Part shown: one piece after another, positions 8,839 through 20,159 of the stretch
Layout of the letters: every line of letters begins with the position of its first letter
Position numbering within the stretch: position 1 is the first letter of the stretch
Assembly (NCBI GenBank): GCA_027021385.1
Contig: JALUUL010000037.1
Span: 1 to 64,000 of the forward strand
Origin: Planctomycetota bacterium
GTDB taxonomy: Bacteria; Planctomycetota; UBA1135; GCA-002748355
Direction: 5' to 3'
DNA length: 64,000 nucleotides
Notes under the pieces: generated by a model
What the model saw: the letters and a program-made list of their open reading frames with translations, nothing else
Told to the model about the DNA's origin: nothing
Database searches by the model: none
Made by a program: the position numbers and the translations under genes

Positions 8839-9960
8839 TCAGACCGAGGAGAAGAAGAAGATCAGGCCGAAGTTCCGCGTGACGCCCGCGGCGGTCGTGT
8901 AGTTGTCGGGATTCCCGGTAGTGGATCCAGAACGAAAGAGGCGGGTCGCTTCGGTGCCTCCGGACGCTCCGCGTCCCACGGTCTGGATCAGGCCCCTCGA
9001 AGTCGTCAGGCCGAGCTTGTTCGCCCCGGGCTGGACCCAGAGCATCTGGGTGAACAGCTTCTTTCCGGCGAGGCTCTGGTTGTTCGGGATCGGCACGGGA
9101 ATCCTCGTGAACCCGCTGGCCCCGGAGGAGACCCCCGTGAGCAGGAAAAGGATGTCCTGGACCATGTAGCAACTCGTCCCGGGGAGTTGTCCGCTCATCG
9201 CCTTCGACCCCAGGAAGATGACGGAGGGGAGATTCGCCGCCCTGCCGTAGCCATAGAAGTAATGGGACGGGCTGTTGACCTTGAAGAGAGAAGTATTCCC
9301 GTAGTGGGAGACCCGGGCTCCGCTCTTCGAGAGACATCCGGCATACGTGCCGTTCTGCGTGTAGCTTCCGTTCCCTGCACTCCGCCCCCACCAGGCGTCG
9401 AGAGGATAGGTGAAGGGGCGGTTGTTGCTCGTGTTCCCGTAGGTCCTCGCCTCGAGAACGAGGGACCGCTTCCCCTTCAGTCCGAGCCACACGAAGATCG
9501 CTCCGGTGTCGAAGGGGAGCTTGAAACCGAAGTTCTGGTTGTTGAGCTTCGGGAGCAGGATCTTCTTCTTGTTGATGACGAGCTTCGTCGTCGTCGAGTC
9601 GAGGTTGTTCGCAAAGGTCGAGGAATAGTTCGCCGGGGTGACGGGAACGCCGTTCAGGCTCTTGTTCGCGAGCGACAGGTAGAGGGAAAGAGTCACGGTT
9701 TGCCCTCCATACCTCCCGTTCGCGAAATTCTTGTTCATCCGGAGAGCGACCGAGCGCATCGGGATCAGGTTCGTCTTCGTGAAGGCGTCGGGGGCGAAGA
9801 TCTGCTGATAACGGGTCGGATACCAGGAGAAGGGGATGTTGTTGTTCGTGTTGCCTCCGGGGGCGCCGCTCTTCGGGGCGATCGCGGTCAGCGCCTGTGC
9901 AGGCAGGATCGGAGCGGCGGCACCCGTCACGAGAAGGAGGAGGGGGATCAGTTTCGACAT
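8839..9960 (-). CDS. Secreted beta-rich protein with shared C-terminal module (family A)
   Basis: Signal peptide [22 protein letters not shown]; paralogous to 49153-50250. Confidence 0.85.
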
Positions 9961-10172
9961 GGCGGACTCCTGGGGTCGGGGAAAAAGGAATAGAAGAAGG
10001 CTCGGGAATCGGGGGAAGAACCCGCATCAAGAGGGGCTCCGATTCTACAAACATGAGGACGGTCCGGGAAGCCTCCACGCCTCCAGCCCGGCGGATAAGA
10101 ATAAGGAATGTCCTGTCCGAGGCGGCGACTCTGGGCATGGAGGCGGGCCCGTTCTCCTCCGGAGGTTGGCCC

Positions 10173-10189
10173 CCCGGCGACCCGCCGGG
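10173..10189. other. Hairpin upstream of carboxyltransferase gene
   Basis: CCCGGCG-ACC-CGCCGGG, 7-bp perfect stem. Confidence 0.4.
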
Positions 10190-10238
10190 TACCTTGCGCC
10201 GAATCCGCGGGCCTCGTACCCGCAAGGAGCGATCCCGC

Positions 10239-11849
10239 ATGGCACCGAGAATTCCCAGCCGAATCCAGACCCGCAGCCCCGAGTTCCGGGCGAATCGGGA
10301 ACACCACCTCTCGCTCGCGGGCGAACTCCGGGAACGCCTCGCGAAGGTCCGTGAAGGGGGGTCCCCGAAGGCCGTGGCCCGCCACCACGCCCGAGGGAAG
10401 CTGCTCCCGAGGGAGCGCATCGACCGGGTCCTCGACCCCGGCAGCCCGTTCCTCGAACTCTCGCCGCTCGCGGCGAACGGGCTCTATGACGACAAGGCGC
10501 CTTCAGCGGGAATCGTGACCGGAATCGGACGGGTCCACGGACAGGAGGTCATGTTCGTCGCGAACGACGCGACCGTGAAGGGAGGCTCCTATCTCCCGAT
10601 GACGGTCAAGAAGCACGTGAGGGCCCAGGAGATCGCCCTCGAGAACCGGCTCCCCTGCGTCTATCTCGTCGACTCGGGAGGGGCCTTCCTCCCTCTCCAG
10701 GACGAGGTCTTTCCGGACCGGGACCATTTCGGCCGCATCTTCTACAACCAGGCCCGGATGTCCGCGGCCCGCATCCCCCAGGTCGCGGTCGTCCTGGGTT
10801 CCTGCACGGCCGGGGGCGCCTATGTCCCGGCGATGAGCGACGAGACGATCATCGTCAAGGAGAAGGGGACGATCTTCCTCGGAGGCCCGCCGCTCGTGAA
10901 GGCGGCGACCGGAGAAGAGGTATCGGCCGAGGAACTCGGAGGCGGAGACCTGCACGCCCGGAGATCGGGAGTCGTCGACCATCTCGCCCCCGACGAGGTC
11001 TCCGCCCTCGCGACCTGTCGCGACATCCTCGAGATGCGGAACCGCCCGGAGAGGACGCGGCTCGACATCGTCGAGCCCGAGGAGCCATGCTACGATCCCG
11101 AGGAGATCTACGGGATCCTGCCGAGGGATCCGCGGCAGACCTACGAGGTGCGGGAGATCATCGCCCGCCTTGTCGACGGCTCGCGCTTCCACGAGTTCAA
11201 GGCCCTCTACGGGACGACCCTGGTTTGCGGCTTCGCGCATCTCCACGGGATGCCCCTGGGCATCCTGGCGAACAACGGCATCCTCTTCTCCGAGAGCGCC
11301 GTCAAGGGGGCGCACTTCATCGAACTCTGCTGCCAGCGCGGGATCCCCCTGCTCTTCCTGCAGAACATCACGGGTTTCATGGTCGGCTCCAAGTACGAGG
11401 CCGGCGGCATCGCGAAGGACGGAGCCAAGCTCGTGCAGGCGGTGGCGACGTCGCAGGTGCCGAGGTTCACGGTCATTATCGGAGGCTCCTTCGGGGCCGG
11501 GAACTACGGCATGTGCGGGCGGGCCTACCAGCCGAGGCTCCTCTTCATGTGGCCGAACGCGCGGATCTCCGTCATGGGGGGGGAACAGGCGGCCAGCGTC
11601 CTCGTCACCGTCAAGCGGGACCAGTACGCGGCCGAAGGCAGGTCCCTGAGCCCGGAGGAGGAGGAGGCCATGCGCCGCCCGATCCTCGAGAAATACGAGA
11701 GGGAGGGGAACCCCTACTATTCCACGGCCCGACTCTGGGACGACGGCATCCTGGATCCCCTCGAAACCCGAAAGGCCCTCGCCCTGGGCCTCGCCGCCTC
11801 CCTCAACGCGGGCATCCCCGATTGGCGCCCCCCGGTCTTCCGCATGTGA
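10239..11849 (+). CDS. mccB: Methylcrotonyl-CoA carboxylase carboxyltransferase (beta) subunit
   Basis: Internal ATG at 10239 with upstream AAGGAG; motifs [66 protein letters not shown]. Confidence 0.92.
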
Positions 11850-11867
11850 CACCGTTTCGGAATCGAA

Positions 11868-12701
11868 ATGACCCGAAAAAGCCTCCTCCAAGCCTCGCCC
11901 CCCTACGAGACCCTCGAGATCTCGGCGCGGGATCCCGGCTTCCTCGTCGTGGCTCTGAACCGCCCCGATCGGCACAACGCCTTCAACGAGACCGTCGTCC
12001 GGGAGCTGCGGGAGGTCTTCGACCTGGCGGGCGGGGATCCCGAGATCCGCGGCGTGCTGCTGCAGGGCCATGGCCCATCCTTCTCGGCCGGAGCGGACAT
12101 CTCCTGGATGAAGGCGAACGGGGAAGGGAACCGGGAGGCAAACCTCGTCTCCGCACGCAGGATGGCGGACATGTTCGAGGCAGTCCATTCCTGCCCGAAG
12201 CCGGTCGTCGCCCGCGTCCACGGTGCGGCCCTCGGAGGGGGGGCCGGCCTCCTGTCCGCCGCCGACATCGCGATCGCAACCGAGGACGCGAAGATCGGTT
12301 TCACCGAGGTGCGACTCGGCATCCTTCCGGCCGTAATCTCCCCCTACGTCGTCGAGAAGATCGGAACGGCCCGGGCCCGGGCCCTCTTCCTCCTCGGGCG
12401 CCGGTTCGACGGAAGGGAGGCACGCCGCTTAGGTCTCGTCTTCGACGCCGTCCCCGAGGCGGAACTCGACGCCTCGATCGACCGCGCACTCGCCGACCTC
12501 ACGAAGGGCGGACCTCACGCCCTTCGTGAAGCCAAAAGGCTCGCACTCTCCTTCCTCGGGGAATCGTATGCGGCCCGCAGGGAGGACACCGCCGCGCGTA
12601 TCGCCGACATCCGGCTCTCGGAGGAGGCCCAAGAAGGCCTCGCGGCCTTCCTCGAGAAACGCCCGCCGAACTGGGTCCGGAAAACGGAGGGTGGACGGTG
12701 A
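11868..12701 (+). CDS. Enoyl-CoA hydratase/isomerase, probable methylglutaconyl-CoA hydratase
   Basis: Crotonase motifs GHGPSFSAGADISWM and VHGAALGGGAGLLSAADIAIA; operon context between MCC subunits. Confidence 0.88.
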   Translation: MTRKSLLQASPPYETLEISARDPGFLVVALNRPDRHNAFNETVVRELREVFDLAGGDPEIRGVLLQGHGPSFSAGADISWMKANGEGNREANLVSARRMADMFEAVHSCPKPVVARVHGAALGGGAGLLSAADIAIATEDAKIGFTEVRLGILPAVISPYVVEKIGTARARALFLLGRRFDGREARRLGLVFDAVPEAELDASIDRALADLTKGGPHALREAKRLALSFLGESYAARREDTAARIADIRLSEEAQEGLAAFLEKRPPNWVRKTEGGR

Positions 12702-14230
12702 CTCCGAAGCCTCTCGAACGCATCCTGGTTGCGAACCGCGGAGAGATCGCCGTCCGGATCCTCCGCGCGGTCCGGGAGGCCGGAGGCGTCGGGCTGGCTG
12801 TCTACAGCGAGGCCGACGAGGAGGCCCTCCACGTCCGCATCGCCGACGAGGCGCGGCTCCTGGGCCCCCCCGCCCCGAAGGATTCCTATCTCGACATCGA
12901 CCGCCTGCTCGAGGCCGCGAAGGAGATGAAGGCCGAGGCCGTCCACCCGGGCTACGGCTTCCTGGCGGAGAACCCGGAGTTCGCGCGCCGCGTCCGCGAG
13001 GCGGATCTCGTCTTCCTCGGCCCGGATCCCGAGACGATGGAGGCCCTGGGTTCAAAGCAGGAGGCGAAGGCGGTCGCCGAGGAGGCGGGCGTGCCGGTCG
13101 TCCCCGGCTTCCGGAAAGCGGGGGCGACGGACGAGGAACTCATCTCCGCGGGGGATCGTTGCGGCTTCCCCCTTCTCGTCAAGGCCTCCGCCGGAGGCGG
13201 CGGCAGGGGCATGCGGCTCGTCGAGAGCGCGACGGAGCTTCCCGGCGCGATCCGTGCCGCCCGCCGCGAGGCCGAGCAGGCCTTCGGGAACGGAGAACTC
13301 CTCCTCGAACGAAGGATCCACCCGGCCCGGCACGTCGAGATCCAGATCCTCGGAGACGGTAAGGGTGGGGCCCTGGCCTTTCCCGAGCGCGAATGCTCGA
13401 TCCAGCGCCGCCATCAGAAGATCCTGGAGGAGAGCCCCTCCCCCGCCGTCGACCCGGATCTGCGCGGACGCATGCAGGAAGCCGCCCTCGCCCTGGCGCG
13501 GCGCGTCGCCTATCTCGGAGCGGGAACCGTCGAGTTCCTCCTCGACGAGGACGGCGCCTTCTACTTCCTGGAGGTCAACACACGCCTCCAGGTCGAACAC
13601 CCCGTCACCGAATGGGTCAGCGGCCAGGACCTCGTGCAGGCCCAGATCCGAATCGCCCGGGGCCGGGCTCTCGAGGAAGCCGTACCCGAGCACGACCCCA
13701 CCCCCCGCGGCTGGGCCCTCGAAGCCCGGATCTGCGCCGAAGACGTGGAACGCGACTTCCTCCCCTGCGCCGGAAGGATCGAACTCTGCCGCGAGGCGAC
13801 GGGACCCGGAGTTCGGATCGACAGCGGCGTCTACGAGGGCTTCACCGTCCCGATGGAATACGACTCCCTCCTCGCGAAGGTCATCGTCCACGCGCCCGAT
13901 CGGCCCTCCTGCCTGCGTCGGATGGAGGACGCCCTCCGCCGCTCCGCCTGGCTGGGACTCCCGACGAACCTCGACTTCCTGATCGACCTCGTCCGTCACG
14001 AGGACTTCCGGAAAGGAAGGCTGCGCACCGATTTCCTCGGAGTCCACGCATCGGATTTCACCGGGCGCGCCGGGACTCCTCCCGAGGAGGTCGGAATCGC
14101 GGCTGCTCTCGCGCCCCTCTTCCGGAAGGAGCCGAACGGAACCGTCTCCGTACCGGGTCGAACGGCCCCCCCCTCTCCCTGGAACCTCGCCGACGGCTTC
14201 CGTCTCGGGACGGGAGGTCCGGCCTCATGA
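12698..14230 (+). CDS. Biotin carboxylase subunit of acyl-CoA (methylcrotonyl-CoA) carboxylase
   Basis: GTG start in GTGA overlap; ILVANRGEIAVRIL, KASAGGGGRGMR, EVNTRLQVEHPVTE. Confidence 0.93.
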   Translation: MTPKPLERILVANRGEIAVRILRAVREAGGVGLAVYSEADEEALHVRIADEARLLGPPAPKDSYLDIDRLLEAAKEMKAEAVHPGYGFLAENPEFARRVREADLVFLGPDPETMEALGSKQEAKAVAEEAGVPVVPGFRKAGATDEELISAGDRCGFPLLVKASAGGGGRGMRLVESATELPGAIRAARREAEQAFGNGELLLERRIHPARHVEIQILGDGKGGALAFPERECSIQRRHQKILEESPSPAVDPDLRGRMQEAALALARRVAYLGAGTVEFLLDEDGAFYFLEVNTRLQVEHPVTEWVSGQDLVQAQIRIARGRALEEAVPEHDPTPRGWALEARICAEDVERDFLPCAGRIELCREATGPGVRIDSGVYEGFTVPMEYDSLLAKVIVHAPDRPSCLRRMEDALRRSAWLGLPTNLDFLIDLVRHEDFRKGRLRTDFLGVHASDFTGRAGTPPEEVGIAAALAPLFRKEPNGTVSVPGRTAPPSPWNLADGFRLGTGGPAS

Positions 14231-14739
14231 ATCGATTCCCTGAGAACCTGAAACTCGGGGACCGCGAGGTCCATCTCTCCGCGATCCGGCTCGACGGGCA
14301 TCGGTTCCGGGTGCGGGTCGGGGAAGCGACCTTCGAAATCGAGGCACGCGACCTCGGGGAGGGAGCCTTCGCTTTCCGGGACCCTGCGGGCCGCAGGCAT
14401 CACGCTACGGCGGCCGTCGTCGAGGGAAGGGTCCAGATCCGCCTCGACGGGCGAACCTGGATTCTCGACTCCCCCGAACGTAAACAGGAGAGCGGACCCG
14501 GGGAGGACGCCCCCGGCAGGATCCTGGCTCCGATGACGGGAACGATCGTCAAGGTCCGGGTCGAGGAGGGAACGGAAGTCGAAGAAGGGGAGGAACTCTG
14601 CGTCCTGACTGCGATGAAGATGGAGCACAGGCTGTGTGCGACCTTCGCGGGCAGGGTCGCGGAAGTCCGCGCCCGCGAGGGGGAGACGGTCGAGGCGGGA
14701 ACCCTCCTAGTCCTCCTCGAAGCCCCGCAGGGGGACTGA
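14227..14739 (+). CDS. Biotin carboxyl carrier protein (split MCC alpha C-terminal part)
   Basis: ATGA overlap with upstream BC gene; biotinylation motif TAMKMEH. Confidence 0.92.
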   Translation: MNRFPENLKLGDREVHLSAIRLDGHRFRVRVGEATFEIEARDLGEGAFAFRDPAGRRHHATAAVVEGRVQIRLDGRTWILDSPERKQESGPGEDAPGRILAPMTGTIVKVRVEEGTEVEEGEELCVLTAMKMEHRLCATFAGRVAEVRAREGETVEAGTLLVLLEAPQGD

Positions 14740-14757
14740 AACCGCCCTCCTGTAGGA

Positions 14758-14795
14758 GACGCGGGGCCCGCGGGCTTTCCCGCGGACCCCGCGTC
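14758..14795. terminator. Bidirectional terminator-like hairpin between convergent genes
   Basis: GACGCGGGG-C-CCGCGGG-CTTT-CCCGCGG-A-CCCCGCGTC, 9+7 bp with one mismatch; no T-tract. Confidence 0.65.
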
Positions 14796-14841
14796 GAGAT
14801 CCTGGCCCCGCGGAAGGGATGCCCCTCCGCGAAGCACGGGA

Positions 14842-15084
14842 TCACAGATCCTGCGGTCGCAGAGTCGCGCGCTTGTTCGCTGCGGCCCGTTCGGAAGCCT
14901 TCTCGAGAAGCTCCCGGACGGCGTTGTCGAGGGCGCCGTAGAAATCCGAGGAGACCTTGAGGTCCACCGCGTTCTTCGTGCGGCTCTTCGAGATGATCAG
15001 GTCGACCGGCTTGGCCTTCCGGCTGGTCTTGCGACGCGCGGTCTTCTTCGTGGCCTTCTTCTTGGCCTTCCTTCTTGCAGCCAT
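14842..15084 (-). CDS. Histone-fold-like protein with Lys/Arg-rich N-terminal tail
   Basis: 80 aa: MAARRKAKKKATKKTARRKTSRKAK tail, then ...SSDFYGALDNAVRELLEKASERAAANKRATLRPQDL, ending with the histone RxTxxxxD motif. Confidence 0.75.
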   Translation of the reverse strand: MAARRKAKKKATKKTARRKTSRKAKPVDLIISKSRTKNAVDLKVSSDFYGALDNAVRELLEKASERAAANKRATLRPQDL

Positions 15085-15422
15085 GTGAAACCTCGGTGCG
15101 TTTGAGAACAATCGAGTTCGGGTTACCCGGAAAGAAAGGTGACGAACCGGCGCACGCGTCCGAACCGCTCCTCCCCATCGAGGGGCCGGAAACGGCCCAA
15201 AACCCGTCGAAACCGCCGAATTCGACGTGCTAGATACGGAATTGGAGGCAGTGCTGCAACGGAAAAGCGGAGCTTTCTTCACCCTCGTTTCCCGCCCCAT
15301 CTGCCCGATCCCGCCTCCCTCTGCTATCCTCATCCCTTCCGGAGTCCCGCCCGGTGGCTCAGGATCTCTCTTCCTCAACTTCCTTCCCCGCGAGTCTCTC
15401 GTACCGAATCGGAGGTCATTCG

Positions 15423-16418
15423 ATGCGCATCCCTCTCCTTTCGACCGCTGTCCTCTTCGCCGGCCTGCTCCCGGCCCAGACCCCCTATCTCCAGGCCGAC
15501 TCCTCCCTCGGAGTCTTCGCGAAGGACCCCAAGAACCTCGCCCACCAGAGCACGAAGACCGGCACCAAGATCCTGAGCGCTCTGAACCTGCAACAGAACA
15601 CGGTCACCGGCGTCCGGGCCTCATCCCAGTTCCAGATCCGTGACACCGACGGATTCGTCGTCGTGACGATCGCCGACCGGGGAGCGGCGACGAGCCAGAA
15701 CCCGACCGCCTTCACGGAAGCCGGGACGACCGCCACCCCGAAGGGCACGAATCCCGTCCAGGGGGCCAATGTCGTGCTCCTCGTCCTTCCGGTCAAGGCG
15801 GGATCCAGGGGCAGGGTCCGTGTCCGGTATTCGGGCGTCCTGACCGGCAACGGCTTCGGAAACGCCCTCGTCGACATCGGAAACGACGGACGGGTGGAGT
15901 TCCGGGCCAAGGCGGGCGCGGAGGTCCAGAAGGACTTCCGAGCCGTCGCGGGCCCCAAGGGCGTGACGATCAAGATCTCGAGCAGCTCGGGGGCGAGCCT
16001 CAAGGGTAAGGGCACGTCGAGTTACGAGAACGGTCTCGTCGTCATGTGGATTCCGGAACCCAGCTGCTCCTACACGAACTACGGCAAGAGCTGCGGCCCC
16101 CTCCTCAGCGGAAGCGCGAAGGCCACTCCGGGCGGGGCGATCGTCTTCCTCAAGTTGACGAAGGCTCCGAAGGCCTCGCCCGTCGGACTCTTCCTCGGAG
16201 CCCGGGCAGTCAACAGGTCGATCCCCGGAACGGCCTGCTTCCTGCTCGTCGACCCGGTCATCTTCTTCCCCTTCTTCACGAACAGTCTCGGAGAAGCCAC
16301 GATGGTGCCCGGGGCGACCCCCTTCACACCGATCAGTTTCTACGCCCAGACCATCATCCTGGACCGCGTGACGCTGAAGGTCTCGAGCAGCCAGGGTCTC
16401 CTCGGCGACTGCCGCTGA
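15423..16418 (+). CDS. Secreted protein with shared C-terminal module
   Basis: Signal peptide MRIPLLSTAVLFAGLLPAQ; C-term GTACFLLVDP...FYAQTIILDRVTLKVSSSQG. Confidence 0.85.
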   Translation: MRIPLLSTAVLFAGLLPAQTPYLQADSSLGVFAKDPKNLAHQSTKTGTKILSALNLQQNTVTGVRASSQFQIRDTDGFVVVTIADRGAATSQNPTAFTEAGTTATPKGTNPVQGANVVLLVLPVKAGSRGRVRVRYSGVLTGNGFGNALVDIGNDGRVEFRAKAGAEVQKDFRAVAGPKGVTIKISSSSGASLKGKGTSSYENGLVVMWIPEPSCSYTNYGKSCGPLLSGSAKATPGGAIVFLKLTKAPKASPVGLFLGARAVNRSIPGTACFLLVDPVIFFPFFTNSLGEATMVPGATPFTPISFYAQTIILDRVTLKVSSSQGLLGDCR

Positions 16419-16458
16419 TCCCTTCCAAGGACTCCGGCGGACCCGCCGGAACGGAATG

Positions 16459-16489
16459 CGAGGCCGCGCCCTCCCGGGGCGCGGCCTCG
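16459..16489. terminator. Terminator-like hairpin
   Basis: CGAGGCCGCGCCC-TCCCG-GGGCGCGGCCTCG, 13-bp perfect stem just after a stop codon. Confidence 0.65.
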
Positions 16490-16562
16490 TCCGCATCCCG
16501 CCCTCCCCGGCGGGATCCAAGGGAGGCCGCGGACCCTCGGGTCGGTATCATCCCCTCCCCCG

Positions 16563-19500
16563 ATGAAGCGCCCGAAGATCCTCCGCACGACCCTCCTCTT
16601 CCTCATCCTCCTGGCCGGAGGCACCTGGGGTCTCCTCCGCTACAGCGGAATCCCGGCTTCCCTGATCCGGGATACTCTCTCCCGGCTCCTCCGCGGGGAG
16701 TTCGACCTCGGAAGTGTCTCCCTCGACCCCCTCGGAGGAACGGTCGAGATCCGGAACCTCGAGATCGGGGAACGGAACCCCGTCCGGAAGAAGGGGGACC
16801 GGAAGGTCCTCACGGTCCCGAAGGTCGTCGTCGGCGTCTCCATGAATCCCCTGTCCTCTCCCGGCCGGATCCGCAGGGTCCTCGTCGAGCGCCCGGAATT
16901 GGATCTCTGGCTCGGAGACAGTACCCCCTTCGACCTTTCCCGGATCCTCGACCTGAAGAACCTGGAGGGTGATGAGGGCGGGAGGGGGGAACCCTTTCCC
17001 GTCCTCGAGATCAGGGACATGGTCGTGCGGCTCCATCTCCCGGGTCTCGAGAACGGCGTCCTCGTCCTTTCTTCGATCCACCTTCTCGCGACCCCGAGTC
17101 GAGAGGAACCCCAGAGAATCCTCCTGGAAGGCTCCTGTCCGCACCCCCTCGGGGGAACCGTGACGATCAAGGGAACCGGAGACGCGGAGAAGCGGGAGTT
17201 CCGTCTCATCGCGGAGACCGGAGGGTTTCGGATCTCCGAGGAACGAGCGAAACCCTTCGGCGAGGCGATCCAGAGACTCGTGCGGAGACTCGGCCTGAAG
17301 GGGTGGGTGGAACCGACGCTCTGGGTCCGGTATCCCGACGGGCGGGGAGGGTTGGCGGTCGGCGTCCGAGCGAAGGTAGCGGAGTTCTCCGTGCGCCCCC
17401 CGACCTTCCGCTACCTCTTCACGCACCTGCAGGGCGAGGTCGCCTGGATCCCCGAGGGCAGGGTCCTCCAGGTCCGAGCGGAACGCACCGGCACCGACAT
17501 GAGCCTGAAGGGATCCTTCCGCCTCGAGGATCTCGGAACCGAGAACGAGACCCTCCGCCTCTCCGCCGAAGCGGACGGGGTCCTGATCGACAGGAGGATC
17601 CATCGCGCGCTCGAGGGCATTCCGGCGACCCGGCGCCTGCTTCGGGCGCTGAACCCGGAGGGGGGACGCGCGAGGGTCGCGATCCATCTCGTCTCGGGAC
17701 GCCCGAGGAACGGAGACCTGCCGACCCTCCAGCTCGACCTCGGCCTCCGCGACATCTCGCTGCGTTTCGACGGCTTTCCTTCCGGGGAGGAAGGAGGCCG
17801 GAGGATCGCCTTCCCCTATCCCCTGCGGGAGGCCTCGGGCGAGGTGCGGATCCGGGACGAGAGCATCCGCTTCACGGATTTCCATGCAAGAGGAGGGAAT
17901 GGAGGCCGGATCCGCGGAGAGGGATCGATCCTTCCCGGAACCGGCGAGGTCCGACTCTCCTTCGAGGCCGATGACCTGCCTTTTTCCCCGCTCCTGCGTT
18001 CATGTCTCGACCGGGCCGTGGTCCGCGGGGCGGAGATCTACGACGACTACGCGCCCAGGGGACGGACCTCGCTCAGCCTGGACCTCGACCTCGGTGGGAA
18101 CGGCGGGGAACCGAAACTCGATCTCCGGCTCAGGCCCCGGGGGGCAAGCGCCGCGTGGAAGGATTTCCCCTACCGCATCCACAACCTGACCGGGGAGGTC
18201 CGGATCACGACGAAGGAGGTCTCCTTCCGCCTGAACGGCAACCGGGGCCCCGAGACGCCGATCCGCGCCCGCGCCCGCTTCGTCTTTCCCGGCGAGGGAA
18301 AGGACGGCTCGGACGAGATCCACATCACCGCCAGTCGCCTACCTCTCGATGATGCGTTGCGGCGGGGCCTCGTCGGCTTCCGCGGATCCTTCGGAGAACG
18401 CTGGAAGACCTTCTCCCCCGAGGGGACGGCGGACCTCGACTTTCTGGGGTGGCGCAAGGGAGGCGGAGTCTTCCAGTACGACCTGCGGGCGGATCTAAAG
18501 GACGGGAGGATCTTCCTCGAGGCCTTCCCGACTCCGGTGACCTCCCTCCGGGGAACGATCGCCCTCCACGGGGACGGGGAACGCTCGCGGGTCGACCTCC
18601 TCGGTCTCGAGGGCCGCGGTCTCGGCGCGGACCTCCTCTTCGAAGGAGTCGTCAGGGAAGGCCCCCCCGGGGACCCGGACGACCGGAGCCCGGCCGCGGA
18701 TCTGACGATTGCCGCCAAAGGGGTCCGCGTGGACGAGAACCTCGCAGAGGTCCTGATCGCGAAAGGGATCCTGGATCGCGAGGTCTGGAAGCTCTGCCGC
18801 GCGACGGGCAGGGTCGACGCGGTCGACCGCATCCGTCGCGCCTACGGAGAAGAGGAGTTCCGTCACGAAATCCTTCTCGACCTCCGGGAGGCGGAGTCGA
18901 CGGCCGCGTTCCTCCCCGACCGGCTCCATGGACTGTCCGGGCGGGTGCGCATCGACGAAGAGCAGAGGATCCGTCTCGAGGACTGCAAGGGCTACCTGGG
19001 GGAGGCCCTCGTCCGCTGCCACGAGGGGACGATCTACCGAAAGGGCGAAAGGACGATCCTCGATCTCCTCCTGAGCGCGACCGAATACCCGGTCGACGAG
19101 CGGCTGGCCCGCCTCCTCGAGGGGGAAGTCAAGAAAGCCTACCTCGCCCGCAAGCCCCGCGGGAGGGTCTCGGTCGCGGATTGGAGGATCCATCTCGAGA
19201 TCCCGTCCACCCCCCCTGACGGCGTGGAGGGGCTCGGGCTCGTCGCACGCTTCGGCGAGGGGGAGTTCCTCGCGCACAACCTGGCGATGGAAGTCGGCAT
19301 CCCCCTGACCGGAATCCAGGGGCGGGCGCGCTTGAGGAGCGGGTTCTTCAACCCCTACGGCGCGGAGTTCCGAGGCTCGTTCAACGGTCTGAACCTCCAG
19401 GCCCTGGGCCAGATCCTGAGAGACACACGGGGCCGCTTCCTCACGACGCACGAAGATTTCGTCATCGAGGAAGGGAGTATGCGGCTGGGCCGGGGACGGA

Positions 19501-20159
19501 TCCGCGGTCCGGTCCCCCCTGCCGAGGGGGATCGGCGATCCCCTCTCCTGCGTTACGGGTTCGGAAGGAAGGGGCGCCTCGACCTGAACCTCGCCCTCGA
19601 CGACCTGCGCCTCGCTCCCCTCCTCAAGGACTTCTCCAGGAACCAACGCTACGACGGCTTCCTCAGGGGAACGATCGATCTCGGGGTGGAGACGGAGGAC
19701 CTGTCGACCCTCCGCCTCGATGCGAAGCTCGGCATCTCCAAGGGGAAGCTCGGCGACGTCCCGATCTTCCGGACGATCTACTCGTTCCTAAAGCCGAGCA
19801 AACGCCAGAACTTCAACGCGGCCGCCCTCGAGGTCCGGGGGAAGGACGGGGTCTTCCGGATCGAGCACCTGATGCTGAAATCCCCGATCTTCAAGATCGA
19901 GGGGCGCGGAACGCTCGGATACGACGGCTATCTGAAGCTCCACGTCGATTTCCCCGACCTCTTCCCCCAGGCCGAGTCCTATTTCATCCTCCCGGGGATC
20001 TACCGCTTCCTCGCGAACAGTCTCGTCAGCTACGAGATCTGGGGCTACATCGGGAACACGAGGACCGGTCCCCGCTTCCTCTTCGAACGGAACCCGAAAC
20101 ACCTTCCGATGGGCCCCCTTCCCGGAAGCCCAGTCCCCCGCCCCCCCGTCTTCCGCTGA
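16563..20159 (+). CDS. AsmA-like / DUF748-type large envelope protein
   Basis: 1198 aa, N-terminal TM anchor, repetitive beta-rich body, AsmA_2-like C-term (FRTIYSFLKPSKRQNFNAAALEVRGKDGVFRIEHLMLKSPIFKIEGRGTLGYDG). Confidence 0.8.
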   Translation: MKRPKILRTTLLFLILLAGGTWGLLRYSGIPASLIRDTLSRLLRGEFDLGSVSLDPLGGTVEIRNLEIGERNPVRKKGDRKVLTVPKVVVGVSMNPLSSPGRIRRVLVERPELDLWLGDSTPFDLSRILDLKNLEGDEGGRGEPFPVLEIRDMVVRLHLPGLENGVLVLSSIHLLATPSREEPQRILLEGSCPHPLGGTVTIKGTGDAEKREFRLIAETGGFRISEERAKPFGEAIQRLVRRLGLKGWVEPTLWVRYPDGRGGLAVGVRAKVAEFSVRPPTFRYLFTHLQGEVAWIPEGRVLQVRAERTGTDMSLKGSFRLEDLGTENETLRLSAEADGVLIDRRIHRALEGIPATRRLLRALNPEGGRARVAIHLVSGRPRNGDLPTLQLDLGLRDISLRFDGFPSGEEGGRRIAFPYPLREASGEVRIRDESIRFTDFHARGGNGGRIRGEGSILPGTGEVRLSFEADDLPFSPLLRSCLDRAVVRGAEIYDDYAPRGRTSLSLDLDLGGNGGEPKLDLRLRPRGASAAWKDFPYRIHNLTGEVRITTKEVSFRLNGNRGPETPIRARARFVFPGEGKDGSDEIHITASRLPLDDALRRGLVGFRGSFGERWKTFSPEGTADLDFLGWRKGGGVFQYDLRADLKDGRIFLEAFPTPVTSLRGTIALHGDGERSRVDLLGLEGRGLGADLLFEGVVREGPPGDPDDRSPAADLTIAAKGVRVDENLAEVLIAKGILDREVWKLCRATGRVDAVDRIRRAYGEEEFRHEILLDLREAESTAAFLPDRLHGLSGRVRIDEEQRIRLEDCKGYLGEALVRCHEGTIYRKGERTILDLLLSATEYPVDERLARLLEGEVKKAYLARKPRGRVSVADWRIHLEIPSTPPDGVEGLGLVARFGEGEFLAHNLAMEVGIPLTGIQGRARLRSGFFNPYGAEFRGSFNGLNLQALGQILRDTRGRFLTTHEDFVIEEGSMRLGRGRIRGPVPPAEGDRRSPLLRYGFGRKGRLDLNLALDDLRLAPLLKDFSRNQRYDGFLRGTIDLGVETEDLSTLRLDAKLGISKGKLGDVPIFRTIYSFLKPSKRQNFNAAALEVRGKDGVFRIEHLMLKSPIFKIEGRGTLGYDGYLKLHVDFPDLFPQAESYFILPGIYRFLANSLVSYEIWGYIGNTRTGPRFLFERNPKHLPMGPLPGSPVPRPPVFR

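Follow-up and report, generated by a model that had tools for sequence, protein, structure and literature searches.

The minus-strand gene at positions 14842-15084 of the window, by which we mean the whole 64,000-nucleotide stretch of the Planctomycetota contig JALUUL010000037.1 that was analysed, very probably encodes a single-domain face-to-face (FtF) alpha3 histone (a probability of about 85%). This nucleoid protein would form a homotetrameric ring with some 60 bp of DNA wound round it, and its disordered tails would add DNA contacts. It is a known kind of protein, since the FtF type has already been described; the original prediction of a bacterial histone with an H1-like tail named the broad class correctly and overstated its rarity. 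The new details are an archaeal-side core, tail lengths that are specific to families, and a partly conserved neighbourhood by an AsmA/GspN-like gene.

The gene comprises 80 codons and a stop, as defined by open reading frame calling and homologs, and its product, MAARRKAKKKATKKTARRKTSRKAKPVDLIISKSRTKNAVDLKVSSDFYGALDNAVRELLEKASERAAANKRATLRPQDL (80 aa), consists of a tail of Lys, Arg, Ala and Thr (residues 1-27) followed by the histone fold (residues 28-80). On re-reading, the coordinates and peptides first quoted for it proved exact. That this is a real gene follows from homologs across the Planctomycetota class, present in 123 of 154 genomes and nearly always in single copy, and from a pN/pS of 0.24-0.42 over the last 36 codons in comparisons with four members of the same family. 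In the phylum as a whole, a profile search recovered the histone in 151 of 392 genomes. The start is placed at 15084, and not at that of a longer TTG open reading frame, because relatives begin with M-A-[AKR]-K/R at the same place and because a GAGG, the probable ribosome binding site, lies at 15091-15094 on the minus strand. A tentative sigma-70-like promoter on the same strand (TTGCAG-17-TATCTA, 15231-15259) was picked out by eye; it is weak, and the promoter scan made no call for it.

In the AlphaFold2 model, assigned with DSSP, alpha1 spans residues 33-39 (KSRTKNA; 14968-14988, minus strand), alpha2 residues 46-69 (14878-14949, minus strand; pLDDT above 90) and a truncated alpha3 only the three residues 77-79, while the tail is poorly ordered; the core modelled on its own reaches a pLDDT of 95.7. 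FtF histones are characterised by R48, N52, R54, T56 and D61 (Schwab et al., 2024; PMC11390915). In the alignment, the first two, which serve tetramerisation according to that work, correspond to R66xxxN70 (14875-14889, minus strand), with the same spacing as R41 and N45 of the haloarchaeal protein D4GZE0. The remaining three fall in the RxTxxxxD motif, which together with alpha3 occupies 14848-14871 on the minus strand and reads R72-A-T74-L-R-P-Q-D79. This motif, on which the histone assignment had first been based, is genuine and not a chance occurrence: R72, T74 and D79 are invariant among 32 aligned sequences, and the full pattern recurs in 88 of 89 relatives from the class, taken as proteins from fetched loci. 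R66 and N70 are likewise invariant in that alignment, and 88 of the 89 relatives combine all five signature residues with [LI]-stop. Two further FtF features were found, namely the basic DNA-contact residues of alpha1 (K33, R35 and K37, invariant among the 32 sequences) and a shortened alpha2 followed by a short alpha3, with the C-terminus at L80, one residue past D79. The five signature residues, the short alpha3 and the chain end just after D79 together point to an FtF alpha3 histone, a category defined by its torus-shaped homotetramer.

Curated family models contribute little to this assignment, the protein being too short and too diverged for them: NCBIfam and PHROGs gave no match, and in Pfam only DUF1931 and Histone appeared, both below the cut-off. 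A pseudodimeric histone of the DUF1931 kind was rejected, as the protein holds a single 53-residue fold and the Pfam match is partial (14.5 bits against a cut-off of 21.8). An archaeal nucleosomal histone was rejected as well, since end-to-end stacking of the HMfB kind needs an alpha3 of about ten residues, and here it has three and the chain ends at residue 80. The initial comparison was with HMfB, but FtF alpha3 histones are nearer to this protein than nucleosomal ones of the HMfB type.

The basic N-terminal tail and linker (residues 1-27; 15004-15084, minus strand) carry most of the charge, with +13 over residues 1-28 against +3 for the core, and residues 1-20 are predicted to be disordered (pLDDT about 50). 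Its description as H1-like is apt for the composition and does not extend beyond it; a search of the organism's own genome found no other protein bearing this tail peptide. Among the 89 class proteins, a basic tail of 13-52 residues is present in 88, the tail length over all of them spans 3-52 residues, with a median of 31, and the composition averages 44% K, 27% A, 9% R and 8% T, figures that are biased by the choice of starts yielding acid-free basic tails. Median lengths differ between families (28 in f1, 32 in f2, 44 in f7 and 15 in f8). In f7, where tails are otherwise the longest, the protein of locus L088 (genome G117) has none, and that of genome G116 matches only from query residue 25 and is apparently tail-less. 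Relatives from other phyla have 1-17 tail residues, and the tails of HLp-type histones in other Planctomycetota range from almost none to more than 45 residues, so tails come and go. The suggestion that such a eukaryote-like tail is uncommon did not hold up, given its presence in nearly every relative sampled and the published observation that bacterial FtF histones commonly bear tails, most of them positively charged (Schwab et al., 2024; PMC11390915).

So strong a charge asymmetry raises the question whether the protein is chiefly a condenser like H1, Hc1 or Hc2, in which the basic tail binds DNA and the small fold merely dimerises. The K/A/T-rich composition of the tail is alike, and Pfam HC2 matches 2 of 32 relatives (best E 4e-4) and an NCBIfam H1-like model 1 of 32, presumably through the tail. 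The folded cores are unrelated, however; the tail varies freely in length (3-52 aa) and is unconserved in sequence, while the DNA-contact residues of the core are invariant, and orthologs with a short tail or none exist. We consider this alternative unlikely. Membership of the H1/Hc1/Hc2 families was rejected for the window protein itself, which has no HC2 or H1 match at E-values up to 10. A SET-domain methyltransferase, considered as a possible tail modifier, was not found in the genome.

The FtF reading agrees with the comparison with solved structures. A profile search returned HTkC of Thermococcus kodakarensis (PDB 9F2C) with an E-value of 1.2e-10, HLp of Leptospira (9QT0) with 1.6e-6 and HBb with 0.78, and Foldseek with the core model ranked the same two FtF proteins first (query-normalised TM-scores of 0.89 for 9F2C_A and 0.93 for 9QT0), ahead of HBb (0.81-0.85) and of the other listed histone folds (below 0.65), with E-values that are weak for so short a domain (best 0.003). 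Model, alignment, profile and fold matches together support both the histone fold and a tail that is basic and disordered. HTkC, a solved FtF tetramer, is about 43% identical over the compared segment, and its solved chain lacks a tail. It carries a Glu where the window protein has N70, which implies that N52 is not strictly needed for the FtF tetramer. HLp (PDB 9QT0-9QT2), also bacterial, shares the signature, and an N-terminal tail is common to Leptospirales FtF histones and the window protein, but the identity to HLp is only about 30% in the structural alignment.

The same comparisons bear on a rival reading, in which the protein belongs with the bacterial-dimer histones of the HBb (Bd0055, Bdellovibrio) type and bends DNA as a dimer. 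The alpha3-truncated histone fold and superfamily are common to both, alpha1 contains the SK motif, HBb is the next fold match, and bacterial dimers have been reported from Planctomycetota too (PMC11390915). These dimers lack R48 and N52 (PMC11390915), however, both of which are present here, and the profile match to HBb is far weaker than that to HTkC, which makes a dimeric DNA bender quite improbable. It is highly improbable that the fold serves a purpose other than DNA packaging, for instance as a complex subunit of the NF-Y or TFIID kind. In favour of this, NF-YB appears among the lower profile and fold matches, HU is present alongside and the histone has been lost in some genera; against it, the basic DNA-contact residues are conserved, the tail is basic, chromatin histones head the fold matches and no conserved partner subunit was seen.

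Returning to the FtF histone, a mode of action can be proposed by analogy with HLp and HTkC. Two copies would pair into a handshake dimer, and two dimers would join into a ring-shaped tetramer, held together by R66, N70 and the terminal carboxylate of L80. About 60 bp of DNA would run around this ring, as reported only for the HLp tetramer (Hu et al., 2025; PMC12701072), touching S32, K33, R35 and K37 of alpha1 and R72, T74 and R76 of the L2 loop. The four disordered, lysine-rich tails would leave the ring and, to judge from their charge, may add non-specific electrostatic contacts with the same or neighbouring DNA.

The histone is not universal in the class. It is missing from some genera, including all seven genomes of one of them (G006-G012, g11), and even at a lax threshold none was detected in these or in G032/G033 (g20) and G041/G042 (g25); it is therefore dispensable there. 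The organism's own genome encodes three HU-family proteins, so that DNA packing need not fall mainly to the histone, and no comparable lysine-rich tail was seen in the open reading frame lists around the three HU genes. One genome holds a second histone copy (L045 on G056:C424; also L107), a 160-residue protein that lacks the FtF R/N pair (KKALRGGRKT) and is extended at the C-terminus by a long acidic stretch, partly coiled-coil in appearance.

Towards other lineages, the core is closest to relatives in Methylomirabilota, Myxococcota, Acidobacteriota, Gemmatimonadota and others (65% identity). Haloarchaeal FtF histones (Haloferax volcanii D4GZE0 and plasmid copies in Halorussus, Halobaculum and Natrinema) share the signature and the C-terminus, but have more acidic residues and no basic tail: five of them, read as proteins, begin right at the fold, with core identities of 55-58% (median 57%). 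A tblastn search of plasmids gave only partial matches below 60% identity; those listed are haloarchaeal and cover residues 27 or 28 to 80 at 54-57%. Phages gave no tblastn match, and none of ten pattern matches in viral contigs was confirmed. The HTkC segment shares 43% of its residues with the core, and the HLp-type group, made up of HLp and 15 other Planctomycetota sequences, shares 40%. In a tree of only 56 columns, rooted at the midpoint and with bootstrap values that had not settled, a 98/83 branch separates HLp and 14 Planctomycetota sequences from the window group, the haloarchaea and HTkC, and one further Planctomycetota sequence (L209) groups with the latter side. Bacterial and archaeal FtF histones have been described as distinct clusters (Hu et al., 2025; PMC12701072). 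Two FtF branches would thus coexist in Planctomycetota, one lying on the archaeal side, which complicates the published clean separation and deserves a check.

A broader scenario is doubtful, though conceivable: an archaeal-side FtF histone may have become a general chromatin protein in the class, its K-rich tail of family-specific length tuning bridging or compaction much as eukaryotic tails do, and evolving independently of the tails on HLp-type histones of the same phylum. The family offers a natural series in which one histone with a nearly constant core bears tails of 3 to 52 residues, so that the effect of a basic tail on DNA wrapping could be measured outside eukaryotes. The series includes genomes matching named strains with complete genomes, Pla86 (CP036296.1) and Pla163 (CP036290.1).

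The proposal that the gene is monocistronic was borne out, as a convergent biotinyl-domain open reading frame ends at 14739 on one side and the next plus-strand open reading frame diverges from 15354 or later on the other; the latter has no family match. The biotinyl-domain frame closes a plus-strand cluster (9897-14739) that also encodes carboxyltransferase, enoyl-CoA hydratase and biotin carboxylase and resembles acyl-CoA carboxylase or leucine or isovalerate degradation clusters. Between the two convergent genes, on the 3' side of the histone gene, lies the GC-rich hairpin that had been called a strong bidirectional terminator (14758-14795). Its existence and great strength were confirmed: the 17-nt arms (14758-14774 and 14779-14795) are 94% complementary, and folding of the intergenic 102 nt gives z-scores of -6.4 for the minus strand and -4.9 for the plus strand. 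Lacking a T-run, the hairpin was not called by the terminator scan, and a role as a U-less bidirectional terminator is put forward as a possibility; an Rfam search over 13000-17000 found nothing.

A large AsmA/GspN-like protein, with weak matches to DUF748 and GspN, is encoded at 16563-20159. A gene of this kind lies inside the fetched flank at 45 loci in total (8 of 8 in f1, 14 of 16 in f8, 21 of 42 in f2, the single loci of f4 and f6, and none of 18 in f7) and is divergent from the histone in all listed cases except L036. Long vertical inheritance is the simplest reading of this partly conserved locus. An alanine racemase-like protein sits between the histone and the AsmA/GspN-like gene at several f2 loci, and a phosphoglucosamine mutase-like one is found on the histone's other side at several loci of f7 and f2, both names coming from reading the sequences and not from a family search.
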